Below, piece by piece: positions 21,993-43,076 of a DNA stretch of 64,000 nucleotides. This DNA is from Chitinophagaceae bacterium 26-R-25. GTDB lineage: Bacteria; Bacteroidota; Bacteroidia; Chitinophagales; Chitinophagaceae. Each line of letters starts with the position of its first letter. The stretch's first letter is position 1. A program made the position numbers and the translations under genes. The stretch is taken from contig JARWSJ010000001.1 of assembly GCA_029906195.1 (NCBI GenBank), positions 434,001 through 498,000 of the forward strand. Direction: 5' to 3'. Under the pieces are notes generated by a model. It did not search any database. It saw nothing but the letters and a program-made list of their open reading frames with translations, and had not been told where the DNA came from.

Positions 21993-24593
21993 ATGAAAGC
22001 ACGCCGGCATCACTTTTTGACAACTTCAATATTCAGTGTCTTCATTGCCATTCAGGGACTGAATGCTCAAACTACCAATACAAACACTCCCGAACAAAGA
22101 AAAGATGTCAGGAAGCCAGCAGATTCTTCCTGGACGCACGCTTTACAAAAACCTGTCTTATTGCCCAACGGGCAAACATTAAACCCTGCAGGAGAAAGTC
22201 TAAACTTAATAGAAGGTTCAAGAGTATTAAACTTGTCATTGGCCTTAAATAAAACTTTGCTTATTGCAAAAACCAACAGAAACATATCTGTTATTGATGC
22301 CAAAAATTTCAAGCTACTTCAATCGTTTAATTATCTTGATAAGGAAGCAGGTTCGATGAACGGGCTTGTTGTTGATGCCAATGATTCTACCATTTATTTT
22401 ACCGGACTGAACAAGAATTTATATGTTGGCAATGTTAGCAGTTCGGGAACATTTACACTTGCAAAAAAAATAGACCTCTCCATTAATAACAAAAACACAA
22501 ATCCGCTTGGCATTGGGTTATGCGGTAACAACATCGCGCTGGTGGCTTGTGCTGTTGCTAACGAGGTTGCGGTAGTAGATATTGCAAAAGGAAAAGTATT
22601 GACTAACATTCCTGTAGGAGTTTGCCCCTATGCAATTGTTATTAGTAAAAATAAAAAAACTGCCTTTGTCAGTGATTTTGGAGGACCTCATCCGCGAAAG
22701 GGAGATAGAACGGAGAAGTCAGCAGGAACAGATGTTGCGGTGGACGAAAGATCAGTAGCAATGCGTGGTTCAGTAAGCGTAATTAATATTGAGTCAAGAA
22801 AAAAGATTGCTGAAATTAGTACCAACATTCATCCGGAATCAATGATTTTATCTGCGGATGGTAAATTACTTTATGTAACTGACGATAGTGGAGATGGTAT
22901 TAGTGTGATAGATGCAACAACTTTCAAGACGATTCGCACCATTAACACCAAACCTGACCGGTCGCTTCCTTATGGCAGCCTTACGACGGCGCTGGAATTG
23001 AGTGGAGACGGAAAAACATTAATGACAGCCAACGCTGGCAATAATTCCATTGCACTTATTGATGCCCAACGTCCCGGCGCAACACCTTATGGTTTTATTG
23101 CTGCAGCTGGTTTTCCCGGAGCAATATGCGTTGCTGATAATAACTTGTTTATAGGAAATGTAACAGCTGTTAAAGGCCAGATTCAAAAAGTAAAACTTCC
23201 TGGCAATGCTTCCGAATTAGCAGCCTATACTTCTGAAGCTAAAAAAGGATTTCATTTTATAGACATGCTGAGGGCTCAAGCAGCGGCCAACTCTCATGTT
23301 GCTCCAACACCAGTTCCCAATAATCCCGGAGAACTTTCTTCTATAAAACATGTCGTGTATATTATTAAAGAGAATAAAAAATTCGACCAGGTTTTGGGTG
23401 ATATTGGCAGAGGCAATTGCGATTCCACATTGGTTGAATTTGGGAGAAAATCTACCCCCAATTTACACCAGCTTGCCAACCAATTTGTATTGCTTGATAA
23501 CTATTATTGCAATGGTGTAAACTCCAGCGATGGCCACCAGTGGGCTATCCAAGGTATCACGACACCTTACCATGAAAAAGATTTTTCCAATGGGCATTGT
23601 GCTTATGATTTTGGTTCAGACCCTTTGTGTTACGCCGGTTGTGGCTTTATTTGGGATCACCTGGTACGCAAAGGGATTTCATTCAGGAATTTTGGAGAAA
23701 CAGATCTTGCTGAAATTCCAAAGGGCGTTACATGGACAGATATTTATAATTCCTGGAAAAACAAAACCGATACCGCTCCCGTTTACAAATGTTCGTATTC
23801 GATGAAAGGGTTGGAAAAATATAGCGACTTGCGTTATCCGGGCTGGAACATGGACATTACCGACCAGGTAAGAGCCGATGTATTCCTGAAAGCGTTAAAG
23901 GAATATGAAACTGCAGGCAGTCTGCCTGAATTTATTGTTATTTACTTACCAAACGACCACACCAGCGGATACGACCCAAAGAACCCCACGCCGCGTGCTT
24001 ATGTTGCAGATAACGATTTGGCAACAGGCAGAGTAGTAGATGCACTTTCTAAAAGCCCCTTTTGGAAAGACATGGCGATTTTTATCAATGAAGATGACCC
24101 TCAAACTGGTACCGATCATGTGGATGGGCATCGATCCATATGTATGATCGCAAGTCCCTTTGCAAAGCGCAATGCCATTGTGAGTAAGTTTTATAACCAA
24201 TCATCTGTACTCCATACAATCTGCCAGATATTCGGTGTACAACCCATGAACCAGTTGGTTGCAACGGCTCCCTTAATGACTGAATGTTTTCAGCAAACCC
24301 CTGATTTTACAGGCTACAACTCGATCGCTGCATCCATTCCCATAAATGAAATGAATCCTGCAAAGACAGCGTTCCAAAGCAAAACCACCGCGAGGCTTGC
24401 TGATATTACGCAAAGAATGGACTTTTCAAAACCTGATCTTATCGATAAGGATGCGCTAATTTTTAGTGAATATGTATGGTCCACAATACATGGCGATAAA
24501 CCTTTTCCTAAACAATACTTCGGCAATCATCAAAAAGGATTGAAAGCGCTTGGTTTAAAAATAGATTCAAATTATAAAGATGATGACGATTAG
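21993..24593 (+). CDS. bifunctional YncE-like beta-propeller / phosphoesterase, exported
   Basis: Protein of 866 residues with a signal peptide (FLTTSIFSVFIAIQGLNAQ). The N-terminal half (about 60-430) is a seven-bladed YncE-type propeller with repeated VxVIDAxxFKxxxTI strands. The C-terminal half (about 445-780) is a phosphoesterase of the acid-phosphatase/phospholipase C family: KHVVYIIKENKKFDQVLGD opens it, NSSDGHQW and LPNDHTSGYD hold metal ligands, and NEDDPQTGTDHVDGHRS completes the site. It likely removes phosphate from an organic phosphate in the periplasm. It ends in an acidic tail, KDDDD, as does its paralogue at 43142. A strong terminator follows, so it is probably transcribed alone. 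Confidence 0.9.
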   Translation: MKARRHHFLTTSIFSVFIAIQGLNAQTTNTNTPEQRKDVRKPADSSWTHALQKPVLLPNGQTLNPAGESLNLIEGSRVLNLSLALNKTLLIAKTNRNISVIDAKNFKLLQSFNYLDKEAGSMNGLVVDANDSTIYFTGLNKNLYVGNVSSSGTFTLAKKIDLSINNKNTNPLGIGLCGNNIALVACAVANEVAVVDIAKGKVLTNIPVGVCPYAIVISKNKKTAFVSDFGGPHPRKGDRTEKSAGTDVAVDERSVAMRGSVSVINIESRKKIAEISTNIHPESMILSADGKLLYVTDDSGDGISVIDATTFKTIRTINTKPDRSLPYGSLTTALELSGDGKTLMTANAGNNSIALIDAQRPGATPYGFIAAAGFPGAICVADNNLFIGNVTAVKGQIQKVKLPGNASELAAYTSEAKKGFHFIDMLRAQAAANSHVAPTPVPNNPGELSSIKHVVYIIKENKKFDQVLGDIGRGNCDSTLVEFGRKSTPNLHQLANQFVLLDNYYCNGVNSSDGHQWAIQGITTPYHEKDFSNGHCAYDFGSDPLCYAGCGFIWDHLVRKGISFRNFGETDLAEIPKGVTWTDIYNSWKNKTDTAPVYKCSYSMKGLEKYSDLRYPGWNMDITDQVRADVFLKALKEYETAGSLPEFIVIYLPNDHTSGYDPKNPTPRAYVADNDLATGRVVDALSKSPFWKDMAIFINEDDPQTGTDHVDGHRSICMIASPFAKRNAIVSKFYNQSSVLHTICQIFGVQPMNQLVATAPLMTECFQQTPDFTGYNSIAASIPINEMNPAKTAFQSKTTARLADITQRMDFSKPDLIDKDALIFSEYVWSTIHGDKPFPKQYFGNHQKGLKALGLKIDSNYKDDDD

Positions 24594-24630
24594 GTGAACG
24601 CGAACTTCAAATGTAGTGTAAAGCATAACG

Positions 24631-24670
24631 ATACAGCGAGTGCAGGAAGTTGCACTCGCTGTATTTTTTT
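24631..24670 (+). terminator. strong intrinsic terminator
   Basis: Perfect 14-bp stem (ATACAGCGAGTGCA at 24631-24644 with 24651-24664), 6-base loop, followed by a run of T. It ends the phosphoesterase transcript and lies between two convergent genes. Confidence 0.9.
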
Positions 24671-24712: not shown

Positions 24713-25849
24713 TTAATTTAAAATGATTGACTTTTCTTCCACAACTTCTTCTGCAAGCCCAAATGAAAGGGTCATTCCCGCTCCACTTGTTGCGTTTATT
24801 ATCGTCACACCTTGTTCAGGTGAATGAATAAATTCTGTTGCGCCATTTGTCATCTTCGCATACTGGCCATTCCAGGATTGTATGCGTTCCCATGATTTGA
24901 AGCGGGCGAACGTTTTCAGATAATCCAATACCAAAGTATTCAATTGTTCACGATCGAACGGATCATGAGCAAGGCCATACTCGTGCGTATCACCTACAGT
25001 AAGAGCGCCTTCTTCATTTTGTGAAACCATCACGTGAATACCCCATTGTACATATTCCGGAAATTCAGCGGCATATCTTTTCTTTAACGCATCAAGCGAA
25101 GGAGAGGACTTGAATGCTGCATAATGCCCGAGTGTTAAGCCACCGCATAGGGAAGGGCCAATGCGCCATCTGCCCGGTTGGGCCGCAAGCCGCATCATTT
25201 GCAATTTGCATTTGGTGATGGGTATTGATTGAAAAACTTCGGGATACAACGTTTCAAAATCTGCGCCACTGCACACAAATATTTTGTAGGCCTGCCATTG
25301 CTTATTTCCCGCAAACGCCGAAGGATATGCGATACGTGTAATAGCAGTGTTCCAAACAAATTCAACTCCATGCTTTTCTTCAAGGTAGCTGGCAACCTGC
25401 GCCACGGCTTGTCTTGATTCAACGATCAATTCGCTCGGGCTCCACAAAGCGCCCTTTAGTCCTTGCGGATTCACAGCCTCTGATTTTCCTACCGCCTCTG
25501 CAGGTGATAACATTGAGCAACGTCGATGATCCTTGCTTTTGGCTTCGAACTCTTCCAATACCTGCAGTTCATCGTTTTGATAAGCGAGATGTAACGATCC
25601 GTTTGGATGGTGCCATATGTCTGCCTCGGCACATAACTCACGCCAAATTTGCCGCGAACGAATGGCGCGTTCATACAATGGACCGTCGGGCTGGCCGATT
25701 GGCCAAATCATTCCAAAGTTTCGAATGGAGGCCCCGATGGCCATTTCATTGCGTTCAAGTACAGTGACTTTATATCCTTGCAGTGATAAGGCTCTGGCGG
25801 TTGCGAGACCAACAATACCCGCACCAATAACTATGGCAGTTTGTTGCAT
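24713..25849 (-). CDS. FAD-dependent oxidoreductase, TIGR03364 (phosphonate-associated) type
   Basis: Flavin amine-oxidase-like enzyme of the DAO fold, 378 residues. The dinucleotide site is VIGAGIVGLATARAL (GxGxxG at residues 9-14), followed by VTVLERNEMAIGASIRNFGMIWPIGQPDGPLYERA, a stretch characteristic of TIGR03364. That family is named for its place in phosphonate-degradation gene clusters and probably oxidises an amine carbon of an aminophosphonate. Here it lies close to a PhnZ-like oxygenase and a phosphonatase-like hydrolase, which supports the assignment. Substrate and product are inferred, not shown. Two palindromes (25862-25899) sit just before its start. Confidence 0.85.
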   Translation of the reverse strand: MQQTAIVIGAGIVGLATARALSLQGYKVTVLERNEMAIGASIRNFGMIWPIGQPDGPLYERAIRSRQIWRELCAEADIWHHPNGSLHLAYQNDELQVLEEFEAKSKDHRRCSMLSPAEAVGKSEAVNPQGLKGALWSPSELIVESRQAVAQVASYLEEKHGVEFVWNTAITRIAYPSAFAGNKQWQAYKIFVCSGADFETLYPEVFQSIPITKCKLQMMRLAAQPGRWRIGPSLCGGLTLGHYAAFKSSPSLDALKKRYAAEFPEYVQWGIHVMVSQNEEGALTVGDTHEYGLAHDPFDREQLNTLVLDYLKTFARFKSWERIQSWNGQYAKMTNGATEFIHSPEQGVTIINATSGAGMTLSFGLAEEVVEEKSIILN

Positions 25850-25861
25850 TTACTTTCATTT

Positions 25862-25899
25862 GTTTAGTAAAAGTAAACTAATGTTTATTTTGAGTAAAT
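25862..25899 (-). promoter_or_regulatory. tandem operator candidate for the XRE-cupin regulator
   Basis: GTTTAGTAAAAGTAAAC (25862-25878) and GTTTATTTTGAGTAAAT (25883-25899) share the pattern GTTTA-N7-TAAAC/T. Their centres are 21 bp apart, two helix turns. They lie 13-50 bases upstream of the oxidoreductase ATG, a repression position. The first, read in reverse, matches 15 of 17 bases with a site upstream of the SusC gene (26757-26773). The region is AT-rich, so single sites could arise by chance; the cross-match is the stronger evidence. Confidence 0.55.
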
Positions 25900-25955
25900 G
25901 AGTGAAGTGTTAAGTAATTATTAGGAGTTGAGAATTGAATAGATGCTGTTGCACC

Positions 25956-25990
25956 AAGACCTGACAGGTTTTTAAAACCTGTCAGGTCTT
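25956..25990. repeat. palindromic repeat, family of GACCTGACAGGTTTT hairpins (copy 1)
   Basis: Arms of 17 bases (25956-25972 and 25974-25990) around one base form a near-continuous hairpin. The same 16-base arm recurs at 43043-43076. This copy lies between the 3-prime end of the regulator and the start of the oxidoreductase, where it could also terminate the regulator transcript. Confidence 0.8.
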
Positions 25991-26017
25991 GTAACCCGCA
26001 ACTTGCATTCAACATTA

Positions 26018-26596
26018 TTAAGAATTAATCTCTTCAAAAAAATAAATGACAAGCATGCTTACCACAGTGTTGCCAAGGTTATGTGGCGTGTGAAATAATC
26101 TTCCATCGAAAAGCATCGAGTCACCTGTTTCTAACGTGATGGTTTCTTTTTCAAATTCATAAGAAACCTGGCCTTGTATTATATATTTATATTCGAAAGC
26201 TTCAGTTTGTACCATTGGTCTGCTCGCACCCGGTTGCAGATCCAGCAGCACAATATCTATCGTAGTGTTTTTTATATGCCGCGAAAAAATGCGATGATAA
26301 TCAAATCCCGTTGCAGATTCTTTTTCAAAATGTTCATATTCGTTTCGTCGTTTGATCACTACCAGTGATTCTGATTGCGACGAGATATCTTTGAAAAAAT
26401 TGTTTAGATCGACATCCAACGCTTTTATAATTTCAATGAGAACGATAAGAGAAGGGATCGTCCGGCTGTTTTCAATTTGTGAAATTAAACCTTTCGTTAC
26501 CTGTGCCCTGTTTGCAAGCTCCTGGATGGTAATCCCCCTGTCTTTTCTCAGCTCTTTAATACGCTGGCTGATACGGATGATAATGTCGTCCTGCAT
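26018..26596 (-). CDS. XRE-family regulator with C-terminal cupin sensor domain
   Basis: Transcription regulator of 192 residues. The helix-turn-helix covers about residues 8-65 (ISQRIKELRKDRGITIQELANRAQVTKGLISQIENSRTIPS). A cupin domain (about 110-185) holds the ligand-binding barrel with YKYIIQGQVSYEF and GDSMLFDGRLFHTPHNLGN. Such regulators usually bind a small catabolic substrate in the cupin and control adjacent uptake or breakdown genes. It sits between the oxidoreductase and the divergent SusC/SusD operon, and palindromes with a shared sequence lie before both. It is therefore the likely local regulator of the phosphonate locus. Confidence 0.9.
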   Translation of the reverse strand: MQDDIIIRISQRIKELRKDRGITIQELANRAQVTKGLISQIENSRTIPSLIVLIEIIKALDVDLNNFFKDISSQSESLVVIKRRNEYEHFEKESATGFDYHRIFSRHIKNTTIDIVLLDLQPGASRPMVQTEAFEYKYIIQGQVSYEFEKETITLETGDSMLFDGRLFHTPHNLGNTVVSMLVIYFFEEINS

Positions 26597-26715
26597 AATC
26601 TTTTGCTAATAAAATACAAGTTAGTGGCTGTCGATCAATAAAAGCCTGGCAGGTAATAATATTTTAATACCGGGGGCAATATAACTAAACATTATTATCA
26701 TAAAATGATATGTAT

Positions 26716-26773
26716 GTTAATAAATATTAAACTAATTAGCCTTAAATGTTCATTAAGTTTAGTTTTACTTAAC
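26716..26773 (+). promoter_or_regulatory. operator candidates between the regulator and SusC genes
   Basis: GTTTAGTTTTACTTAAC (26757-26773) differs at 2 of 17 bases from the reverse of the site at 25862-25878. A weaker copy, GTTAATAAATATTAAAC (26716-26732), lies 41 bp upstream, about four helix turns. A -7-like TAGATTTG (26817-26824) stands between these sites and the SusC ATG (26851), though no -33 box at normal spacing is seen. This arrangement suits a repressor or activator acting on the SusC/SusD operon and perhaps on its own gene. Confidence 0.5.
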
Positions 26774-26850
26774 TTTTAGATAACTTCGAGTATACAATGG
26801 CTTAACACGTCAGGAATAGATTTGTGGGTATAAAATCAAACTGATTGGTT

Positions 26851-29800
26851 ATGACCATTTCAAAACAAACACCATTCTACCTGGTGCTTTTGGTTGCAAC
26901 AATTCTTTTTCAGCAGCCACTACAAGCCCAAAAACATGCCATCAAAGGCCTGGTCAAGGAAGCAAGCACCCATGAACCTATTGCGGGTGCCAGCATCTCA
27001 GTAAAGAACACAAGTCTTGGTACTACTTCCAATGCTGATGGTTCTTTTTTAATACAGGCAAAAGATGGAGATGAGCTGATCATTTCTTCTACGGGTTTTC
27101 AAACGACTACCGTTGCTGTAGCGGGCAGTAATGTCGAAGTTTCTCTTCCGGTTTCTACCAAGCAACTAACCGATGTGGTGGTAACGGCATTGGGCGTACG
27201 AAAAGAAATTAAGAAGTTAGGATATGCGGTGCAGGAAGTAAAAGGTGAGGACCTGGTAAAGGCGCGTGATCAAAACCCACTCACGGGACTTACCGGAAAA
27301 GTGGCCGGTCTGTCGGTTGGCGCATCTGCAGAAATGCTTGCAAAACCTACAGTGCTACTGCGTGGTAACGAGTTGAACCTTTACGTGGTTGATGGTATGC
27401 CGATCAGTTCGGATACCTGGAACTTAAGTCCGGACGACATTGAAACTTACACGGTGCTGAAAGGGCCCGCTGCTGCGGCATTATACGGCAGCCGTGCACA
27501 GTATGGTGCTATCTTGATCACTACAAAAAAAGGTGGAAAGAAAAAAGGCTACTCTGTTGAGTTTAATTCCAGCAACGTTTTCGATAAAGGCTTTTTGGCT
27601 TTTCCACGCATGCAGGATGACTACGGTCCGGGTGAAAATGGCCTGTACAGTTTTGGTGATGGAAAGGGCGGTGGCTTGAACGATAACGACTACGATGTTT
27701 GGGGACCTCATTTTGAAGGCCAGTCGATTCCTCAGTATGATAGCCCGGTTGATCCGGTTACCGGCGTGCGCCAGGGAACACCTTGGGTTGCCCGGGGTAA
27801 AGACAATCTGAAAAGATTTTTGCAAACAGGCTTTCAAACTACCAACAACATTGCGTTGAATGCTACGGGCGAAAACTACAATGTGCGTTTTTCTTTGTCG
27901 CAATCATATCAGAAAAGCATTATTCCAAACATGAAGTTGAACATTACCAACTTCAACCTTTATGGATCATATAACCCAACGCAGCGTTTGAAAATTGAAG
28001 CCAACTTCAATTACAACCGTCAGTACACACCTAATTATCCTGATGTTACCTACGGGCCCAACAGTTTAATCTACAACATTGCGATTTGGACCGGCGCGGA
28101 TTGGAACATGTCGGATATGCGTAATTACTGGCAAAAAGGCAAAGAAGGTACACAGTCCATCTTTGCTGAATACCAGCGCTATCACAACCCTTACTTTATG
28201 GTGTACGAATGGTTAAGGGGGCATTACAAAACGGATATCTATGGTTATGCATCTGCTAACTACAAGATCAATAATAACCTGAATACAACGCTGCGTACAC
28301 AGATTACCGGATATGATCTTTTCCGTTCTGAAAAAATGCCTTTCTCTGCCCACCCTTATGGCCGTGAGCAACAGATGGGTGATTATCGCGAAGACAAGCG
28401 CAGCCTGTTTGAAAATAATACGGAGTTGTTGTTAAACTTTAACTACAATATCGGACGTTCAGTAAACCTTGCAGGACTGGCAGGTGGAAACATCCGTTCA
28501 TTCATGTATAACTCGAGCTTTACTTCAACAGACTATTTAAGTGTTCCTAATGTATATAACTTCAACAACTCACTGAATCCTATCCAGTCGAGCAGTTTTG
28601 GTTCTGACATGCGAGTGCTAAGCGCTTACTATGCAGTGGACGCTTCCTTCGGAAAATATCTTACTTTATCTACAACGGGACGTGTAGACAAATCATCCGC
28701 AGCACCTAAACAGGCATCGTTCTTTTATCCAAGCATTTCGATCGCTTCTGTATTGTCTGACTACATCAAGTTGCCGTCGGCAATATCTTTCCTGAAAGTA
28801 CGCGGCTCTTATGCCCAGGTAAAAGGAGATGCAACTTCACCTACAATCGGTATGGCTCCATATAACTCCATTACCGCGTTCGGTCAAACACCTTCAGGAA
28901 ATTCTTTAACAGATTATCCGCTTGGTTACGGCACCAATTATTTGTCTCCTTATGGCGGTCCTGATTATTCTCTACAGCAAGTGTACAATACGTCTAAAAC
29001 GTACAATAATCAACCAGACGCGCACTCATCTATCTATTTGTATGATCCAAATATCCGCACCTTCAATCGTGTGAACTATGAAGAAGGCTTTGATATCCGC
29101 TTCCTGCAAAACAGGCTCGGCCTGAGTGCAACTGCTTTCCAATATGTAGATGGTCCTCAGATATTGAAGAATCCCATTTCAACTGCTTCGGGTGCGCAGT
29201 ACTATTATGTTAACGCATTAAAGACGCAAAAAACGGGATACGAGGTATCTGTAACGGGATCGCCTTTACACAAGGCGAATGGATTAAACTGGGATGTGTT
29301 GGTTAACTGGTCAACTTTTCACGACAAATACAAAGAGTTACCTGCAGGCCAATCTACCTACAATACATTTTTTCACACAGGAGATCGCGTTGATAAATTT
29401 TATGGAACTGCTTTCGAAAAAACAACAGATGGCAAGATCATTTATGACGGTGCCGGCATGCCACTTACCAATCCTGTTAAACAATTCCTCGGTAATCTTA
29501 ACGCAGACTATTCATGGAGCATTTACAATAAATTCTTTTACAAGAACCTGTCATTCGGTTTTCAGTTTGACGGTAGTGTAGGAGGCGTAATGTCAGATTA
29601 CATGCACCTTAAAACAATGAGAGGTGGCCGCAATATTGAAACAGTGGAAGGTAAACTGGGCGAAGCAAGATTAGCAGACTTTAAAAATATAGGCAACAGC
29701 AACTACGAGGGAACTTATGTGGGAGAGGGCGTTGTTGTATCCAATGGTGTTGACATCGATCACAATTCAGAAACAGGAGCGATTACAAACTATGATAAGC

Positions 29801-30126
29801 TGCAGTTTGCTGCAAACACAACGCCAAGCAAGGTGCAGGGTTGGGTAAGTTCTTACTATGCCCTGGATGAAGCAAACCTTATGAGCAAAACATACGCAAA
29901 GCTTCGCGAGGTAACAATTGGTTACGACTTGCCTGCCAACTGGGTGGCGAAAGCTTCTCTTAAAAAAGTAACGGTTTCTTTAGTTGGTCGCAACTTGTTG
30001 TACTTCTACAAAGACAACAGATTTAAAGATGTAGATCTTGATCAGTATAACGCAGCTACCAATACAACTATGTTGCAATCGCCTACTACACGTCGTTATG
30101 GCTTTAACCTGAATGTTGTGTTCTAA
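26851..30126 (+). CDS. SusC/RagA-family TonB-dependent outer-membrane transporter (phosphonate locus)
   Basis: Outer-membrane active transporter of about 1,091 residues. A signal peptide (FYLVLLVATILFQQPLQAQ) precedes a carboxypeptidase-like regulatory domain (about 28-105). The plug carries the SusC signature VLKGPAAAALYGSRAQYGAILITTKKG, then a 22-strand barrel ends in YGFNLNVVF. The ATG at 26851 is chosen over an in-frame TTG six bases earlier. It lacks an STN signalling domain, in keeping with control by a cytoplasmic XRE regulator rather than by an anti-sigma factor. It would import the locus substrate with the SusD lipoprotein 18 bases downstream. Confidence 0.95.
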   Translation: MTISKQTPFYLVLLVATILFQQPLQAQKHAIKGLVKEASTHEPIAGASISVKNTSLGTTSNADGSFLIQAKDGDELIISSTGFQTTTVAVAGSNVEVSLPVSTKQLTDVVVTALGVRKEIKKLGYAVQEVKGEDLVKARDQNPLTGLTGKVAGLSVGASAEMLAKPTVLLRGNELNLYVVDGMPISSDTWNLSPDDIETYTVLKGPAAAALYGSRAQYGAILITTKKGGKKKGYSVEFNSSNVFDKGFLAFPRMQDDYGPGENGLYSFGDGKGGGLNDNDYDVWGPHFEGQSIPQYDSPVDPVTGVRQGTPWVARGKDNLKRFLQTGFQTTNNIALNATGENYNVRFSLSQSYQKSIIPNMKLNITNFNLYGSYNPTQRLKIEANFNYNRQYTPNYPDVTYGPNSLIYNIAIWTGADWNMSDMRNYWQKGKEGTQSIFAEYQRYHNPYFMVYEWLRGHYKTDIYGYASANYKINNNLNTTLRTQITGYDLFRSEKMPFSAHPYGREQQMGDYREDKRSLFENNTELLLNFNYNIGRSVNLAGLAGGNIRSFMYNSSFTSTDYLSVPNVYNFNNSLNPIQSSSFGSDMRVLSAYYAVDASFGKYLTLSTTGRVDKSSAAPKQASFFYPSISIASVLSDYIKLPSAISFLKVRGSYAQVKGDATSPTIGMAPYNSITAFGQTPSGNSLTDYPLGYGTNYLSPYGGPDYSLQQVYNTSKTYNNQPDAHSSIYLYDPNIRTFNRVNYEEGFDIRFLQNRLGLSATAFQYVDGPQILKNPISTASGAQYYYVNALKTQKTGYEVSVTGSPLHKANGLNWDVLVNWSTFHDKYKELPAGQSTYNTFFHTGDRVDKFYGTAFEKTTDGKIIYDGAGMPLTNPVKQFLGNLNADYSWSIYNKFFYKNLSFGFQFDGSVGGVMSDYMHLKTMRGGRNIETVEGKLGEARLADFKNIGNSNYEGTYVGEGVVVSNGVDIDHNSETGAITNYDKLQFAANTTPSKVQGWVSSYYALDEANLMSKTYAKLREVTIGYDLPANWVAKASLKKVTVSLVGRNLLYFYKDNRFKDVDLDQYNAATNTTMLQSPTTRRYGFNLNVVF

Positions 30127-30144
30127 TCAATAAATATTAATTGT

Positions 30145-31767
30145 ATGAAAAAGATATATGCAATTTCACTTTTAGCAATCGCTGTGATAATAGCAAGCAG
30201 TTGCAGCAAGAGCTTTAGTGATTTGGAAAAAAATAATAACAAACCAACTGAGGTTCCTCCCAATCAGTTATTTACTGGTGTGCTTACTGATATGTACGAA
30301 GCACCATACACCATGGCCGAACGCTGGAGTCAATATTACCTGTGTAATTATGATTACTATGGAGATAACCGTTACGATTTCGGATCGCTGGAAGCGGATC
30401 TCAAATCCGTACCGATGGACTATTATTCAACACTGCAAAACGTAGTGAACATGGAAACCGCGGCCAAAAAAAATGGAGGGAACACTGTAAATCCATACAG
30501 TGCTTTAGCCAAATTTTTTAAAGCTTACCTGTATTCAAAAATGAGCATGGAGCTGGGTGATATTCCTATGACGCAGGCTTTGCAGCAAATTGGAAATCTT
30601 ACCCCAAAATACGATTTGCAGAAAGATGTTTTCAAGCAGTCTTTCTTGTGGCTCGATTCTGCAAATAATGACCTGGCGGCACTTATCGCTCGTCCGGACA
30701 AGGCGAACACCACTCCGGGACAACTTTTGAAAGGCGATATCTATTTTAACAATGATCTCAGCAAATGGCAGAAAGCTGTAAACACTTTGCGCATCCGCCT
30801 GCTGCTTGCATTAAGCAAACATGCCGATGATGCAGATCTTAAAGTGAAAGAACAGTTTACAGATATTCTTTCGAACAGCACGCAGTATCCCTTAATGATG
30901 GATGGTTCAGATAATTTGCAATACACTTATTTGTACCCAACCAATCTTTATCCAAACAATCCGGGCAATTTTGGTTTTGATGCGTTGAGATACAATACAT
31001 CAAATACCTACATTCATTTGCTCGACAGCTTACAAGATCCGCGTGTGTATGTAACTGCGGAACCTGCCCGCTATCTTGTTGACTCGCTTCACCAGGACCC
31101 GTTGGATTTCAAATCCTTTGTAGGTGCAGATCCGGGAGAAAACCTTACGGATATGTATGATAAAACAAATCATGGCAAATATTCTTTGCTTAATCGTAAG
31201 CATTACTACGACACTTATACAGGAGAGCCCGGAATACAAATAGGTTACCCTGAGCTGATGTTTAACATCGCAGAGGGCATCAATCGTGGTTGGTATACTA
31301 AAGGAGGACTTAGTGCTGAAACCTTCTACAAGAACGGCATACAATCATCTTTGAGTTTTTACAGTATTCCAGCAAGCGGTGCTATGAATGTGTATTTCCT
31401 TCATCCGGGCGCAAGCCTTGGTCAGTATGATAAGTACGTGGTGAATGTTGATTTTAATAATTACTACAATCAATCAACCGTTTCTTACTCTACAACTGAT
31501 GTTAACAAAGCGCTGAAGCAGATATTGATTCAAAGATACATCGCATTGTTCCGTCACTCCGGACTGGAATCATATTTCACTTACAGGAGAACAGGTGTGC
31601 CAACATTTACAGTGGGCGATGGAACAGGAAACAGCAAGCGTATTCCAATGCGTTTTCAATATCCTATTAATGAACGTTCCGCAAATCAGGCAAATTATAA
31701 AGCCGCATTGACCTCACAATATGGCGGTAACGATGATATTAACGGAGTTATGTGGTTGTTGAAATAA
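30145..31767 (+). CDS. SusD/RagB-family nutrient-binding lipoprotein (SusD_2 type)
   Basis: Surface lipoprotein lid of the SusC transporter, 540 residues, with a lipobox at IASSC (acylated C20). The N-terminus SFSDLEKNNNKPTEVPPNQLFTGVLTDMY and the mid-region helices (YSALAKFFKAYLYSKMSMELGDIPMTQAL) match the SusD_2 subgroup, which is often paired with transporters for peptides or small compounds rather than large glycans. The gene follows SusC by 18 bases. A short hairpin separates it from the phosphatase-family gene that continues the operon. Confidence 0.93.
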   Translation: MKKIYAISLLAIAVIIASSCSKSFSDLEKNNNKPTEVPPNQLFTGVLTDMYEAPYTMAERWSQYYLCNYDYYGDNRYDFGSLEADLKSVPMDYYSTLQNVVNMETAAKKNGGNTVNPYSALAKFFKAYLYSKMSMELGDIPMTQALQQIGNLTPKYDLQKDVFKQSFLWLDSANNDLAALIARPDKANTTPGQLLKGDIYFNNDLSKWQKAVNTLRIRLLLALSKHADDADLKVKEQFTDILSNSTQYPLMMDGSDNLQYTYLYPTNLYPNNPGNFGFDALRYNTSNTYIHLLDSLQDPRVYVTAEPARYLVDSLHQDPLDFKSFVGADPGENLTDMYDKTNHGKYSLLNRKHYYDTYTGEPGIQIGYPELMFNIAEGINRGWYTKGGLSAETFYKNGIQSSLSFYSIPASGAMNVYFLHPGASLGQYDKYVVNVDFNNYYNQSTVSYSTTDVNKALKQILIQRYIALFRHSGLESYFTYRRTGVPTFTVGDGTGNSKRIPMRFQYPINERSANQANYKAALTSQYGGNDDINGVMWLLK

Positions 31768-31810
31768 AGTGCCAACATAAAATCTGGTTGTGTTAGAATT
31801 TTCAAAAACG

Positions 31811-31839
31811 GTGTCAGGCGGTGCGATACTGCCTGGCAC
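31811..31839 (+). promoter_or_regulatory. intercistronic hairpin after SusD
   Basis: GTGTCAGGC (31811-31819) pairs with GCCTGGCAC (31831-31839) with one G-U pair and an 11-base loop. It is followed by an AT-rich run but no clean T-tract. It could weaken read-through or set mRNA stability so that SusC/SusD is made in excess over the enzymes downstream. Confidence 0.4.
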
Positions 31840-31860
31840 ATTTATTAAAAAAGCTTTAGA

Positions 31861-32937
31861 ATGAAAAAGATAAACATGCTGCTGATATGTGCGGTGATAG
31901 CGTTGCAGACCATTGCTCAGCAGAAAACAGAAAATGTAGTTATTGTGACGCTTGATGGAATGCGTTGGCAGGAAGTGTTTGGTGGTGTGGACAGCGCATT
32001 GATGAACGGTCGTTACACGATGGATAAAAAAGCAATGACAGAAAAATTTTGGAGCGACACGCTGCAGGAGAGAAGAAGAAAGCTTTTCCCCTTCCTGTGG
32101 CAAATGGTTGCAACGAATGGGCAGCTGTATGGAAACAGGTGGGAGAATAATAAAGTGAATGTGGCAAACCGGTATCAATTTTCTTATCCCGGCTACAACG
32201 AAATATTTACAGGTTATCCGGACACTGCAGTGAACTCAAACGATAAAGTACCTAACAGCAATATCAATGTATTGGAGTTTATAAACAAAGATCCAAAGTA
32301 CAAAAATAAAGTGGCCGCATTTGCTACCTGGGATGTGTTCCCTTACATTCTGAATGCGAAACGTAGCGGAGTATATGTAAACGCTGGTGTAGATACGCTA
32401 CCATCTTTAACACAAGGGTTGTCGTTGGTAAATGACTTGCAATTCCTGTCGCCACAACCGATCGATGTAAGACCGGATGTAGCCACTTATCTCGCGGCAC
32501 GAGAATATCTTAAAGCAAAACAGCCAAGAGTATTATACATCGCATTTGATGAAACAGACGATTACGCTCACGCCGGTTTGTATGACCAGTACTTAAAGTC
32601 TGCACATGCAGAAGATGCCATGCTCGCAGATTTATGGAATACACTTCAATCGATGCCGCAATACAAAAACAAAACAACGCTGATCGTTACATGCGATCAT
32701 GGTCGTGGCGATAAAAAGAAAGATACGTGGCGCGATCATGGAAGTGATATTGCTGAATCGGGTGAAATATGGATGGCATTTATCGGACAAGGAATTTCAT
32801 CAAAGGGAGAAATGAAAACTTCACAGCAACACTACCAACAACAATTGGCCGCTACGATTGCTTCTCTGCTTGGATTGAACTTTACAACCACTCATCCTGT
32901 AGCGCCTTCTCTTTCAGCAGAAATTGTTAAACAGTAA
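31861..32937 (+). CDS. periplasmic alkaline-phosphatase-superfamily enzyme (phosphodiesterase/phosphoglyceromutase-like)
   Basis: Exported enzyme of 358 residues (signal peptide MLLICAVIALQTIAQ). Metal ligands are readable: D32 in VTLDGMRWQEVF, the pair in FDETDDYAHAG, and TCDHGRGDKKKDTWRDHGSD. The likely nucleophile region is FSYPGYNEIFTGYPD. The superfamily includes phosphatases, phosphodiesterases and phosphonoacetate hydrolase, so it could release phosphate or trim an esterified phosphonate before import into the cytoplasm. Its TAA overlaps the ATG of the PhnZ-like gene (TAATG), marking the same operon. Automated pipelines tend to label relatives as phosphoglyceromutase, which its export makes unlikely as the role here. 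Confidence 0.82.
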   Translation: MKKINMLLICAVIALQTIAQQKTENVVIVTLDGMRWQEVFGGVDSALMNGRYTMDKKAMTEKFWSDTLQERRRKLFPFLWQMVATNGQLYGNRWENNKVNVANRYQFSYPGYNEIFTGYPDTAVNSNDKVPNSNINVLEFINKDPKYKNKVAAFATWDVFPYILNAKRSGVYVNAGVDTLPSLTQGLSLVNDLQFLSPQPIDVRPDVATYLAAREYLKAKQPRVLYIAFDETDDYAHAGLYDQYLKSAHAEDAMLADLWNTLQSMPQYKNKTTLIVTCDHGRGDKKKDTWRDHGSDIAESGEIWMAFIGQGISSKGEMKTSQQHYQQQLAATIASLLGLNFTTTHPVAPSLSAEIVKQ

Positions 32938-33509
32938 TGAACGAAAAGATGAATCAATACGAAATTATTGCAGATGAGATCATCGGGCTGTACAAGGATT
33001 TTGGTAGTGCCGACTATATAGGTGAGCCGGTGTCGCAAATCGAACACATGTGCCAGGCCGCCCAACTTGCAGAAGAGGAAGGTTTTGATGATGAGGTTGT
33101 CCTTGCTGCTTTTTTTCATGACATCGGCCACATCTGCGAAACAGAAGTGGAAAGCATGGATGGATATGGCGCCAAAGATCATGAAGAAATGGGAGCGGAG
33201 TTTTTGCATGTAAGAGGGTTCTCTGAAAAAATCATAAAACTTGTTTTATCGCATGTGGCAACAAAACGGTTTCTAACGCAGCGTTATCCTGCATACTATA
33301 ACAAATTATCAGAAGCCAGTAAGATTACACTTGCACATCAGGGTGGGCCAATGTCAGAGGAAGAGGCTTCCGTATATGAAAGCCACCCCTTGTTTCCTTT
33401 GTTCATAAAAATAAGAGAGTGGGATGATAAGGCGAAAGTTGAAAACGTTCCATTGCCTTCTCTCGAACATTATCGTGAGATGATGGTCAGGCATCTTTCA
33501 AGGAATTAA
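32937..33509 (+). CDS. PhnZ-like HD-domain diiron oxygenase (phosphonate-associated, TIGR03276 type)
   Basis: HD-fold protein of 190 residues. It keeps the diiron ligands by pattern: H37, H61/D62 in FFHDIGH, H82 in YGAKDHEEMG, H106 in SHVATKR and D163 in REWDDK. It also keeps Y27 and E30 in ADYIGE, which in PhnZ close over the iron site and bind substrate, and the K110 position. PhnZ splits the carbon-phosphorus bond of 1-hydroxy-2-aminoethylphosphonate using oxygen. The presence of YIGE argues for an oxygenase of this kind rather than an ordinary HD phosphohydrolase. It is cytosolic and coupled to the gene upstream. Its last codons, RN-stop, fall in a repeat element. The substrate may differ from PhnZ. 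Confidence 0.87.
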   Translation: MNEKMNQYEIIADEIIGLYKDFGSADYIGEPVSQIEHMCQAAQLAEEEGFDDEVVLAAFFHDIGHICETEVESMDGYGAKDHEEMGAEFLHVRGFSEKIIKLVLSHVATKRFLTQRYPAYYNKLSEASKITLAHQGGPMSEEEASVYESHPLFPLFIKIREWDDKAKVENVPLPSLEHYREMMVRHLSRN

Positions 33510-33727
33510 GAATTAGGAATTAGGAATGCTTTTAGTGATGCTGGTTGAATAATTAAACGCATGTCGCTTGTCATCCCGACGAAGGAGGGATCTGGGTCTA
33601 GCCCAGCGAGCACTATGTGTAAGCAATCACGCAGATCCCTCCTTCGTCGGGATGACAAGCAGTCTTTGTTTATGGTTTACGAGCCGCACACAAACAATTC
33701 TTAATTCTTAATTCCTAATTCTTAATT
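33501..33727. repeat. nested inverted-repeat element (REP/MITE-like), copy 1
   Basis: Outer ends are imperfect inverted repeats built from AATTAGGAATT / AATTCCTAATT-type units (33501-33527 and about 33697-33727). Inside lies a perfect 29-bp inverted repeat (33566-33594 and 33632-33660; core GTCATCCCGACGAAGGAGGG) with a 37-base loop. The upstream gene ends inside the outer repeat (AAGGAATTAA). A related copy follows the LacI gene at 51288-51577. No transposase is nearby, so it would be mobilised in trans, if at all. Confidence 0.8.
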
Positions 33728-33742
33728 GAATAAAAAACAAGC

Positions 33743-35065
33743 ATGAGAAAAATTCTAAGTAATAGCAGAACTATCGTAGCAAATTGGCCGGCAAAATGGA
33801 TAGCAATCTTAGCGGCGATTTCCGCTTTTGGATGTTACACCTGCATGTATGCTTTTCGCAAGGCATTTGCCGCTGGAACCTATGATAATACAACGTTTTG
33901 GCACGTTGACTATAAAGTATGGCTGGTTATTGCGCAAGTGGTAGGCTATACTGCCAGCAAATTCTATGGCATCCGTTTTATTGCTGAAACGGGCCGTCGA
34001 ACAAGAGGAAAAAGTATTCTCACACTCATCGGTATTTCCTGGGTTGCCTTGCTTGGTTTTGCAATAGTGCCTGCACCATGGAACATCGTTTTTCTGTTGA
34101 TCAACGGATTTCCGCTGGGGATGATTTGGGGATTGGTTTGCGGTTACCTTGAAGGGCGGCGCAATACAGAATTTATGGCGGCGGTAATGTCAACGAGTCT
34201 CATCTTCGCGTCCGGGTTTGTAAAATCTACAGGCCGAATGTTGATGGCGCATGCTTCGGTGAGTGAATACTGGATGCCTTTTCTTACGGGACTAATTTTT
34301 GTACTTCCACTTATTTTGTTTGTATACTGTTTGGAAATTATTCCCCCGCCTTCCGAAAAAGACCGGCAATCAAGATCTGTAAGGGCTCCCATGAATGCAG
34401 CCGAAAGAAAGCATTTTGTAAAATATTTTTTACCGGGCATTATTCTTACACTCATTATTTATGTTTCACTAACGATCATGCGCGATGTGCGTGATAACTT
34501 TGAAGTGGAGATCTGGGCAAATTACGGCATCCACGATTACAGCATTTACACAAAAATAGACAGTATCATTGCGATCGTTGTACTGGTGTTGATCAGCTCG
34601 CTTATGCTGGTAAAAAACAACCTCAAAGCGTTCTCCCTGATTCATTATATGATCATAAGCGGTTGCCTGCTTATATCGATAGCTACAATATTGTTTAGCG
34701 CGGGCAAGCTCGATGTAACCACATGGATGATGTTGGCAGGCCTGGGATTGTATTTAGGTTACATTCCTTACAACGCGATATTTTTTGAACGGATGCTTGC
34801 AACGTTCCGGTATAAAGGGAATGTAGGGTTTGTAATGTACATTGCAGATGCAATCGGCTATTTGGGAAGTGTGAGTATTTTATTAATTAAGGAATTTGGA
34901 AATGCCACTTTGAGCTGGGGGTATTTTTTTCAGCATAGTGTTTTGGTTGTTGGCTTCACGGGTGGTGCAGTCACAATTGTTTCATTACTTTATTTCAGGG
35001 CAAAGAAAATGCGTTCAGGTGTTTCTGAAATGGAAAACTTCGCTCCTGGAAATGCGATCGCGTAG
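33743..35065 (+). CDS. DUF5690-family MFS-like membrane transporter
   Basis: Polytopic inner-membrane protein of 440 residues with about 12 helices, opening WIAILAAISAFGCYTCMYAFRKAFAAG, as in major-facilitator organophosphate carriers. A loop motif FYGIRFIAETGRRTRGK follows the second helix, and LGLYLGYIPYNAIFFERMLATFR lies in the C-terminal half. It matches DUF5690, a Bacteroidota family without an assigned substrate. Its place between a PhnZ-like enzyme and a phosphonatase-like hydrolase suggests that it carries the phosphonate, or a product, across the inner membrane. The element at 33501-33727 separates it from the gene upstream, so it may have its own promoter. Confidence 0.85.
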   Translation: MRKILSNSRTIVANWPAKWIAILAAISAFGCYTCMYAFRKAFAAGTYDNTTFWHVDYKVWLVIAQVVGYTASKFYGIRFIAETGRRTRGKSILTLIGISWVALLGFAIVPAPWNIVFLLINGFPLGMIWGLVCGYLEGRRNTEFMAAVMSTSLIFASGFVKSTGRMLMAHASVSEYWMPFLTGLIFVLPLILFVYCLEIIPPPSEKDRQSRSVRAPMNAAERKHFVKYFLPGIILTLIIYVSLTIMRDVRDNFEVEIWANYGIHDYSIYTKIDSIIAIVVLVLISSLMLVKNNLKAFSLIHYMIISGCLLISIATILFSAGKLDVTTWMMLAGLGLYLGYIPYNAIFFERMLATFRYKGNVGFVMYIADAIGYLGSVSILLIKEFGNATLSWGYFFQHSVLVVGFTGGAVTIVSLLYFRAKKMRSGVSEMENFAPGNAIA

Positions 35066-35151
35066 TGATTGTTGGCAATGTGGGCGGCGACTGGCTTAGG
35101 CATAAAATGAAATTTGATTTTACAGTGGTTCTATAAAAAAATAATTCGGAT

Positions 35152-35832
35152 ATGATAAAGATGATTGTGTTTGATATGGCAGGTACAACTGTCGATGAAG
35201 ATAATATTGTGTATAAAACTTTACAAAGTGCCATCAACGAAAAAGGTTTTGATCTTGATCTGGCCAAGGTTTTGGAACAGGGAGCCGGAAAAGAAAAACT
35301 ACAGGCCATAAAAAGTATACTTAAAACATACGCTCAAAATGAGGACGAAAACTTGGCGAAAGATATTTATGATAGGTTTTTAGTGCTGCTTAAGGACGCA
35401 TATACAACAATGGATGTTTTTCCGCAGGCAAATGCAGTCGACCTTTTTCAGTCATTGAAACAAAAAAATATCCTTGTAGTATTAAACACCGGATATAACC
35501 AGGAAACAGCAACGTTTCTTATTAAAAAATTAGGCTGGGAGAAAGGAACACATTTTGACGGTTTAATCACCGCCACAGATGTTCAACAAAATCGTCCGGA
35601 ACCGGACATGATATTGCTGGCAATGGAAAAATTCAACATTGCCAACGCGAGTGAAGTAGTAAAAGTGGGCGATTCAACCATTGACATAGCAGAAGGGCAA
35701 AATGCGGGCTGCGGAATAAGCATAGGCATTACTACCGGAGCGCATACATATGACCAGTTACTTACCGCCAATCCGGATTATATCATTGATGACTTGTTGG
35801 ATCTGTTGCCAATTATTGAAATGAGAAAATAG
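35152..35832 (+). CDS. phosphonatase-like HAD hydrolase (PhnX-like, TIGR03351 type)
   Basis: HAD-superfamily enzyme of 226 residues. The nucleophile is D8 in VFDMAGTTVDED. The residue two places on is Ala, as in phosphonoacetaldehyde hydrolase (DWAGT), whereas phosphatases have Asp there. By eye, K47 in GAGKEKL falls where phosphonatase has its Schiff-base lysine. Other matches are NTGYNQET, TATDVQQNRPEPDM and VKVGDSTIDIAEGQNAGC (acidic metal ligands). It is therefore a good candidate to hydrolyse a carbon-phosphorus bond of an aldehyde such as phosphonoacetaldehyde, a plausible product of the FAD oxidoreductase. It is cytosolic and the last intact gene of the locus. Confidence 0.85.
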   Translation: MIKMIVFDMAGTTVDEDNIVYKTLQSAINEKGFDLDLAKVLEQGAGKEKLQAIKSILKTYAQNEDENLAKDIYDRFLVLLKDAYTTMDVFPQANAVDLFQSLKQKNILVVLNTGYNQETATFLIKKLGWEKGTHFDGLITATDVQQNRPEPDMILLAMEKFNIANASEVVKVGDSTIDIAEGQNAGCGISIGITTGAHTYDQLLTANPDYIIDDLLDLLPIIEMRK

Positions 35833-36041: not shown

Positions 36042-36217
36042 GTAGGAACTTATTACCACAGAAAATATAAACAGGTTTTAAATATGCAATTAGATTAGTG
36101 TTATTATCACACTTTTTATTTCTTTTTTTTATATGATAAAGAATATTTTAAGTCGCTTTATCTTGATGGTAACAAATATTTAATCCTGTTTTTTTAACAA
36201 CCTATATAATTTGCGCC

Positions 36218-36253
36218 ATGAATCTTTCAATTTTTACAGGAGGAGGAGAATGA
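36218..36253 (+). promoter_or_regulatory. 11-codon leader frame and purine-rich ribosome site overlapping the sigma-factor start
   Basis: An ATG at 36218 opens MNLSIFTGGGE, stopping at the TGA of 36251-36253, which overlaps the sigma-factor start (ATGATG at 36250-36255). The glycine codons form AGGAGGAGGAGA (36238-36249), a strong Shine-Dalgarno match that is unusual for Bacteroidota. The overlap could couple leader and sigma translation. Confidence 0.4.
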
Positions 36254-36849
36254 TGGACAAGTATTTAATAGAAGGAATCCAGGAAAACAACCAAACGATA
36301 TTTTCCACTGTTTTTAAGCAGTATCACGCCAAACTATACTTTTACTTTCTTGAGAAGAGCGGTTCCTCTATCACCAGTAGTGAACTGGTACAAACAACTT
36401 TCATTAAGTGCTGGAATCACAGGCACGGACTCAACCTGGAAATGGCTCTGTCAGCTCAATTGTTCAGGATAGCAAAAACAACATTCATCGACCACTTGCG
36501 TGAGAAGGCCCGCGAGAGGATCGTAAGTATCGAGGTGGAAAGCATTAATGAAGACCTGACTGATCCTATTGCTGATATTCATCCTTTGTTGGATGAAGTA
36601 GAAGCCAGCTTAAACAAAATATCTCCTCAACGCAGCACTATAGTTAAGTTTCGCCTCGAAGGATTCAGCAACCAGGAAATTGCTGACCAGTTAGGCATTT
36701 CCAAAAAAACGGTAGAAAACCAATTAAACAAAGCAGTAAAAGAAATCCGCAGTCTTGTTCATTCTACAGCCGATTTGTCTTTCCCCCTTTTTTTATTTTG
36801 CCTGCTTTACACTGAAACAATCACGCACTCTCTTGGCGGCGCATGTTAA
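36250..36849 (+). CDS. ECF RNA polymerase sigma factor (Bacteroidota expansion family)
   Basis: Sigma factor of about 199 residues. Region 2 includes FSTVFKQYHAKLYFYFLEKSGSSITSSELVQTTFIKCW, and region 4 includes ISPQRSTIVKFRLEGFSNQEIADQLGISKKTVENQLNKAVKEI. A hydrophobic C-terminal tail (FPLFLFCLLYTETI) is typical of this group. Start codons at 36250 and 36253 follow a purine-rich ribosome site; the frame upstream has no ATG. A FecR-type anti-sigma factor is 75 bases downstream. Together they should switch on the SusC/SusD operon that follows. Confidence 0.92.
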   Translation: MMDKYLIEGIQENNQTIFSTVFKQYHAKLYFYFLEKSGSSITSSELVQTTFIKCWNHRHGLNLEMALSAQLFRIAKTTFIDHLREKARERIVSIEVESINEDLTDPIADIHPLLDEVEASLNKISPQRSTIVKFRLEGFSNQEIADQLGISKKTVENQLNKAVKEIRSLVHSTADLSFPLFLFCLLYTETITHSLGGAC

Positions 36850-36924
36850 CAAATTATTACCGGTGGGTGCAATCGTTCTTCGCGAACGTAATATGGTTGT
36901 CCACTCAGTTCAACAGATTTTGAT

Positions 36925-37947: not shown

Positions 37948-38016
37948 TTAACTGAGAAGAAATTAAAAAAGTGCGCACCACTGGTGCAGGAATCTTATTG
38001 TCTAAATAAATATACA

Positions 38017-41259: not shown

Positions 41260-41278
41260 TCATTTTTAATATAAACAA

Positions 41279-43042: not shown

Positions 43043-43076
43043 AGACCTGACAGGTTTTTCAAAACCTGTCAGGTCT
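43043..43076. repeat. palindromic repeat, GACCTGACAGGTTTT hairpin family (copy 2)
   Basis: Perfect 16-bp arms (43043-43058, 43061-43076) with a 2-base loop, then TTTGT. Arm sequence is the same as at 25956-25990. It lies between SusD and the phosphoesterase gene and could act as a partial terminator. Confidence 0.85.

Follow-up and report, generated by a model that had tools for sequence, protein, structure and literature searches.

A probable aminophosphonate utilisation locus with an adjoining SusCD pair in a Chitinophagaceae bacterium

Gene content of the locus

The genome of Chitinophagaceae bacterium 26-R-25 (6.51 Mb in 6 contigs) carries a candidate aminophosphonate utilisation locus within a 64,000-nucleotide stretch that we call the window (positions 434001–498000 of contig 1; coordinates below are those of the window unless another locus is named). 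At its centre are two adjacent plus-strand genes, as expected of a SusCD uptake system: a SusC/RagA TonB-linked outer-membrane transporter (26845–30126; TIGR04056, 422.9 bits, cut-off 368.25) and a SusD-like lipoprotein of family PF12771 (30145–31767; SusD-like_2, 204.1 bits, cut-off 27). Four more genes follow on the same strand: firstly, a secreted alkaline-phosphatase-superfamily enzyme, proposed to be a phosphoesterase (31861–32937; weak PF01663 match, 29.9 bits, cut-off 23); secondly, a PhnZ-type HD di-iron oxygenase, Phn-HD (32937–33509; TIGR03276, 206.2 bits, just under the cut-off of 214.6), whose start overlaps the end of the phosphatase gene by one base at position 32937; thirdly, a DUF5690 major-facilitator permease, a proposed organophosphate/phosphonate carrier (33743–35065; DUF5690, 544.7 bits, cut-off 25); and fourthly, a PhnX-like HAD protein, a proposed phosphonoacetaldehyde hydrolase (35152–35832; TIGR03351, 210.8 bits, just under the cut-off of 218.9). 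Two genes on the minus strand encode an XRE-cupin regulator (26018–26596; HTH_3 and Cupin_2 in Pfam) and a PbfD-type flavin adenine dinucleotide (FAD) oxidoreductase, proposed to oxidise 2-aminoethylphosphonate (AEP) and N-methyl-AEP (24713–25849; TIGR03364, 437.6 bits, cut-off 285.1).

These eight genes had been named in an initial annotation of this DNA, and all were present where it had placed them (open reading frame (ORF) list, NCBIfam, Pfam). We add to them a secreted protein of 866 amino acids that combines a beta-propeller with a PF04185 phosphoesterase (21993–24593, plus strand; PF04185, 65 bits, cut-off 23) and putative operators at 25862–25899 and 26716–26773.

Conservation of the gene group and its phosphonate enzymes

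We surveyed 395 genomes of the phylum, accepting DUF5690 above its family cut-off, Phn-HD at E < 1e-50, TIGR03364 at E ≤ 1e-60 and PhnX-like proteins at E ≤ 1e-40. Only some candidates were scored per genome (at most three for SusD, and at most four for DUF5690 and TIGR03364), so the tallies are possibly low. DUF5690 was found in 42 genomes (and weakly in one more), Phn-HD in 17, TIGR03364 in 33 and the PhnX-like HAD in 29; 15 further genomes with Phn-HD matches only at E > 1e-4 were excluded. The families co-occur (Fisher p from 2.8e-15 to 9.2e-34, only indicative since the genomes are related), and in genomes with both members of a pair the two are at most 12 kb apart in 25 of 30 cases for DUF5690 and TIGR03364, 24 of 28 for DUF5690 and PhnX-like, and 25 of 27 for TIGR03364 and PhnX-like. 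DUF5690 is present in all 17 genomes with Phn-HD, at most 12 kb from it in 14.

Neighbourhoods of 10–20 kb, many of them stopping at contig ends, were then labelled by blastp against the window proteins, with SusC called at E < 1e-8 around DUF5690 and core loci and at E < 1e-10 around HD loci; mechanical ORF calling missed HD in L107, L119 and L121 (recovered by tblastn) and DUF5690 in L076. Around HD in the 16 other HD genomes, we found SusC in 15, SusD in 15, DUF5690 in 13, the FAD oxidoreductase in 13, the PhnX-like HAD in 11, the phosphatase in 9, the XRE-cupin regulator in 8 and the propeller phosphoesterase in 5; the last is a probable accessory member of the locus. Conserved co-occurrence with SusCD had been set beforehand as a check on the initial annotation, and it is strong, both across the 395 genomes and in the SusC and SusD genes that stand beside HD in 15 of the 16.

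A scan for HD in named genomes yielded 15 loci, 12 of them from Bacteroidota by title, two from 'uncultured bacterium' and one from Myxococcota, and 14 of the 15 carry DUF5690, PhnX-like or FAD homologs. Within the window's own genus, DUF5690 occurs in two of three genomes, our own included. The other one (L070) has a PhnX-like gene (75% identity), DUF5690, SusCD and a TIGR03366-like alcohol dehydrogenase (304 bits, cut-off 328), with neither HD nor FAD in the 20 kb fetched. By this distribution, the locus is accessory.

Relatives also carry other phosphonate enzymes in these gene runs. In L041, SusC, SusD, the phosphatase and HD are followed on one strand by PhnA (496 bits, cut-off 407.55), the phosphonoacetaldehyde dehydrogenase PhnY (665.1 bits, cut-off 635.65), PhnW (485.1 bits, cut-off 400.8), an FAD oxidoreductase that belongs to a different family, and DUF5690; the genome gave no TIGR03364 or PhnX-like match at the thresholds given above. 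L120 has PhnW (475.9 bits) and the dehydrogenase (672.8 bits) close to HD, DUF5690 and FAD, L112 has PhnA (493.5 bits), and in L057 three consecutive genes encode a PhnX-like protein, the (R)-1-hydroxy-AEP lyase PbfA (634 bits, cut-off 525) and DUF5690. That phosphonate routes are swapped around the same transporters points to phosphonates as the substrate class.

The residues expected of such enzymes are conserved. In the PhnX-like HAD, D8, T12, K49, R148, D174 and D178 are invariant in 40 of 40 sequences, including that of the window. D8 is the HAD aspartate, and the counterpart of K49 in phosphonoacetaldehyde hydrolase 1fez is the lysine of the MGLLK segment; the lysine of this MGxxK cap motif is presumably the one that forms the Schiff base in that hydrolase. 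The protein falls short of the cut-off for PhnX proper (TIGR01422, 115.8 against 220 bits). In Phn-HD, the 13 positions aligned to what we take to be the di-iron ligands and pocket residues of PhnZ are identical in all 29 sequences, and the protein is closer to PhnZ (4mlm, E 2e-47) than to TmpB (6npa, E 2e-33).

The locus has in common with hydrolytic AEP clusters with PbfD (PMC10590968) that a TIGR03364 oxidase adjoins a PhnX-type hydrolase and that PhnW is absent; unlike them, its hydrolase belongs to the TIGR03351 subgroup, and it also contains a PhnZ-type oxygenase and SusCD. PbfD enzymes oxidise N-methyl-AEP, with PbfD2 acting about 4-fold more slowly on AEP, and take the place of PhnW; neither 'Bacteroid' nor 'TonB' appears in the text of that paper (PMC10590968). 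The HD oxygenase, whose closest solved structure is PhnZ, recalls the oxidative PhnY*/PhnZ pathway, whose PhnZ is specific for (R)-alpha-hydroxyphosphonates (PMC10574752).

Two points weigh against a phosphonate assignment of these enzymes: Phn-HD and the PhnX-like HAD both score slightly below their curated cut-offs, and, unlike the PhnY*/PhnZ pathway (PMC10574752), the locus has no PhnY*-type hydroxylase for PhnZ chemistry (NCBIfam, Pfam). One PhyH gene lies about 2.4 Mb away in the same genome (L122), with no NCBIfam match at E ≤ 1e-25. Because the locus lacks a hydroxylase, ready-made (R)-1-hydroxy-AEP is the likely substrate of the HD oxygenase, unless the distant PhyH gene serves it.

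The secreted phosphatase (31861–32937) has D32, D206, D233, H237, D279, H280 and H293 in 24 of 24 sequences and S108 in 23 of 24. Its structure model is poor (predicted local distance difference test, pLDDT, 61.2), and the matches of that model, to phosphoglycerate mutase, LtaS and ENPP, none at E ≤ 0.001, would say no more than 'alkaline-phosphatase superfamily'. We considered this protein as a phosphonoacetate hydrolase (PhnA) and rejected the assignment: it does not match TIGR02335 at E ≤ 0.01, and L041 and L112 encode PhnA in a gene of its own. The phosphonate reading of the initial annotation is borne out by the conserved co-occurrence together with the PhnW, PhnY, PhnA and PbfA genes in relatives' gene runs, and we regard it as very probable that this is an aminophosphonate utilisation locus.

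Association of SusCD with the phosphonate genes

To what extent SusCD belongs to the locus can be judged from its relatives. A search of the 395 genomes with the window SusD gave 36 matches at E ≤ 1e-40. Among the 16 of at least 41% identity (the window included), 14 lie at phosphonate genes, 13 beside Phn-HD and one (G204, L050) beside DUF5690, FAD and PhnX-like genes; the other two are in G009 and on contig 8 of G255. Among the 20 of 31–36% identity, a single match belongs to a phosphonate locus (G322, L046), the other 19 being placed elsewhere by fetched neighbourhood (10) or judged from coordinates (9). In a maximum-likelihood SusD tree of 40 rows, rooted at the midpoint and with outside rows picked as kin of the window SusD, the window falls in a 21-row clade (support 100/100) that comprises 16 rows from HD loci, two from core loci without HD, two others and the window itself; the closest row, 60% identical, is from a Terrimonas metagenome-assembled genome (Chitinophagaceae). 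Among the rows sampled, a separate 9-row clade (100/100) consists of phosphonate loci alone, six with HD and three core.

In two genomes (G192 and G101; L062 and L071), SusCD and HD are located together but apart from the core of DUF5690, FAD and PhnX-like genes, so SusCD tracks HD itself. By comparison, a SusC homolog stands at two (L060 and L082) of 20 fetched DUF5690 loci without an FAD or HD label, which served as the control (L060, L063, L065, L066, L069 and L072–L086; L086 carries a 25% PhnX match). Judged from these sequence comparisons, it is likely that SusCD was recruited to phosphonate loci repeatedly, and we think it probable that the SusCD pair is the outer-membrane entry of the locus.

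Several observations count against this role. Core loci without HD (L045–L055, L057, L058, L061 and L070) show a SusC homolog in only 6 of 15 cases, and five such loci share a different TonB receptor family instead. One locus with HD, phosphatase and core (L043, in G255) has no SusCD in the 20 kb fetched; a different contig of its genome carries a SusD that is 41% identical. SusC or SusD homologs occur in just 8 of the 15 named HD loci, several of which are short, and none was found in the 20.5 kb of L116.

The counter-explanation that fares best accepts that the enzymes degrade phosphonates and holds that SusCD and the secreted phosphatases are general scavengers of organophosphate esters, co-located because they are wanted under the same conditions. 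Two loci argue for it, and so against a dedicated importer: L095 has SusCD and phosphatase (SusC 61%, SusD 56% and phosphatase 59% identical) without carbon-phosphorus (C-P) genes, and so does L097, a paralog in the window's own genome in which a SusC/SusD pair and phosphatase homologs have no C-P genes nearby. Moreover, the PusCD systems of Flavobacterium adjoin phosphodiesterases and monoesterases (PMC8115612). Set against this, SusCD remains with HD where HD has left the DUF5690 core, and all but two of the 16 close SusD relatives sit at phosphonate genes. On balance, we consider general scavenging unlikely.

The SusCD–phosphatase set of L095 (7245–16147) has a GntP-family permease on one side and an amino-acid permease on the other, and L097 (6329–13717, at about 376328–383716 of contig 1) contains two alkaline-phosphatase-superfamily homologs, of 55% and 59% identity.

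The initial annotation had presented a link between SusCD and phosphonates as not well described, a claim that gives way to precedent: SusCD near phosphonate-degrading enzymes has been reported for the PusCD clusters of Flavobacterium (PMC8115612). Those systems were identified by low-phosphate induction, and the accessible part of the report states no per-gene makeup with PbfD, PhnZ-type, PhnX-like or DUF5690 members; the window differs further in having an XRE-cupin regulator and a candidate operator (PMC8115612). No other title or abstract opening on a SusCD phosphonate importer was found among the literature matches listed.

It is far less credible that SusCD imports a glycan or peptide as a carbon source and that the phosphonate genes are chance neighbours. 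Most SusCD pairs handle glycans or peptides, and the genome contains 121 matches to the window SusC, pieces counted; however, no carbohydrate-active enzyme (CAZyme) or peptidase family was found in the nine locus proteins scanned (NCBIfam, Pfam), so the locus does not class as a polysaccharide utilisation locus, and the SusCD association is kept across families of the phylum. A case from Maribacter forsetii bears on both sides. Its SusCD pair P177_RS04595/04600 has been assigned to laminarin, with an alkaline phosphatase, an FAD oxidoreductase and a phosphonatase-like hydrolase as neighbours and no adjacent CAZyme in the same direction (PMC11345257). By analogy with the described neighbours, this pair may belong to the present locus type; on the other side, it appeared on glucose and laminarin but not in the casamino control, a pattern that fits a carbon-source reading too, and no major-facilitator transporter was seen expressed (PMC11345257).

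Some bacteria contain AEP in their own cell material, but that the locus recycles self-made phosphonates, for example from the cell's own lipids, is hardly plausible at all, since PepM did not exceed its cut-off in any of the 17 HD genomes (four weak matches, the best at 60.1 against 319.55 bits), which marks the locus as catabolic, and PhnW did not exceed its own in the window's genome (best 38.9 against 400.8 bits).

Directly after the locus, at 36211–43012, ORFs that by eye resemble a sigma factor and a FecR-type regulator are followed by a second SusC/SusD-like pair.

Inner-membrane carrier, candidate operator and proposed pathway

For the inner-membrane step, we modelled DUF5690 (12 sequences; pLDDT 86.6) and compared the model with the PDB. 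Human G6PT takes the first five places (E 8.7e-8 to 2.4e-7), and SLC37 proteins account for 13 of the best 50; G6PT is an organophosphate:phosphate antiporter (OPA). GlpT is absent among the best 50, and hhalign comparisons with E. coli GlpT, UhpT and UhpC are weak (probability 34%; in a second run, 27% in local mode and 87% under forced end-to-end alignment). In each hhalign run, R39, K40, K73 and R247 of DUF5690 align with R45, K46, K80 and R269 of GlpT; R39, K73 and R247 do not vary across the 59 sequences, while the fourth position, K40, is lysine in 51 and arginine in 8. Arg45, Lys80 and Arg269 of GlpT bind substrate (PMC4598623). Fold and aligned residues thus suggest that DUF5690 may be an OPA-like carrier. 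This resembles the AepP 2-AEP permease, a GlpT-kind major-facilitator permease co-localised with AEP enzymes; AepP, unlike DUF5690, is 27.75% identical to GlpT (PMC8316502), the link of DUF5690 to the OPA family being one of fold and aligned residues.

Two results temper this assignment. NorA is the sixth match of the DUF5690 model (E 2.7e-7), close to the fifth G6PT match, with other carriers soon after; and 12 of the 42 DUF5690 genomes lack a strong TIGR03364, so the family is wider than phosphonate use. DUF5690 copies without neighbouring FAD or HD genes were seen at the 20 control loci listed above. The DUF5690 profile found no PDB sequence match at E ≤ 10, a Pfam scan of the 12 proteins gave no family other than DUF5690 in any of them, and viral contigs gave one pattern match and no DUF5690 relative. 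The name DUF5690 appeared nowhere in the literature searched, and the PF12974 phosphonate-binding protein was not found in the window's genome at E ≤ 0.001.

A palindrome, GTTTA-N7-TAAAC, was first noticed upstream of susC in several loci, and we counted it upstream of locus genes in the 25 loci that combine an XRE-cupin homolog with one or more core genes. A spacer of 7 gave 15 exact and 28 near (at most one mismatch) matches, whereas spacers of 0–6 and 8–15 gave at most one exact and at most 10 near matches each; five pairs of palindromes are spaced by 20–22 bp and two by 41–42 bp. The palindrome was discovered in 11 of these loci, and in the 14 held out there were 2 exact matches where shuffles averaged 0.04 (maximum 1) and 7 near matches where they averaged 0.97 (maximum 4). 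In the window, two candidate operators 21 bp apart precede the FAD gene (25862–25878, exact; 25883–25899, one mismatch) and two 41 bp apart lie on the other side of the regulator gene (26716–26732 and 26757–26773, one mismatch each). The total for the 64 kb does not exceed chance (5 found, 3.91 expected); only its placement does, four of the five near matches falling within the two intergenic stretches that flank the regulator gene. No operator match precedes the 21993–24593 gene. We infer that the XRE-cupin protein binds GTTTA-N7-TAAAC; the palindrome occurs in 12 of the 25 loci, and the 13 without a match count against this. Because the linked regulator is an XRE-cupin protein with its own candidate operator, the locus may respond to its substrate instead of to phosphate limitation.

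Other intergenic features were seen. TAnnTTTG is the minus-7 element of Bacteroidota promoters, and TAGATTTG at 26820–26827, upstream of susC, fits it by eye. A hairpin with a T tail at 24630–24665, a possible terminator from the terminator scan, lies between two convergent genes; promoter and terminator scans of the region gave no more sites than shuffles did. Between the regulator and FAD genes, at 25959–25987, lies a perfect palindrome whose arms are ACCTGACAGGT and ACCTGTCAGGT; both arms occur again at 43045–43074 (4 matches against 0.05 expected), and it resembles an intergenic repeat element.

Drawing on these sequence comparisons, we propose the following pathway. SusD and SusC would capture and import a phosphonate-bearing compound, either an ester, for instance a fragment of a phosphonolipid or phosphonoglycan, or a free aminophosphonate, from which the secreted phosphoesterase at 31861–32937, and probably also that at 21993–24593, would release a small aminophosphonate. 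DUF5690, judging by its fold and residues, would carry this across the inner membrane, perhaps exchanging it with phosphate. In the cytoplasm, by the activities of their families, the PbfD-type oxidase would convert AEP or N-methyl-AEP to phosphonoacetaldehyde, the PhnX-like HAD would cleave this through its Schiff-base lysine to acetaldehyde and phosphate, and the PhnZ-type HD oxygenase would in parallel convert (R)-1-hydroxy-AEP to glycine and phosphate. The XRE-cupin protein would read the operators before the FAD gene and before the SusCD run, joining both in one regulon. On the whole, we regard it as likely that the locus serves aminophosphonate utilisation and has an outer-membrane pump of its own.

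Phosphonates are a large pool of reduced phosphorus, and we know of no importer that brings larger phosphonate compounds through the outer membrane. With this locus come a testable candidate for such an importer and a candidate inner-membrane carrier, and its route could handle AEP, N-methyl-AEP and hydroxy-AEP without PhnW or an ABC phosphonate-binding protein. Its newest elements are DUF5690 as a possible OPA-like carrier, the probable repeated recruitment of SusCD, and the candidate operator. More tentatively, with the chances somewhat below even, Bacteroidota may have turned SusCD into dedicated phosphonate-ester importers more than once, DUF5690 may include new phosphonate:phosphate antiporters, and the XRE-cupin protein and GTTTA-N7-TAAAC may couple uptake and C-P cleavage to phosphonate rather than to phosphate hunger. 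If this joint reading is true, the Maribacter forsetii pair assigned to laminarin (PMC11345257) would be a phosphonate importer. Caution is therefore in order with SusCD pairs from proteomes, which should not be taken as glycan importers by default.

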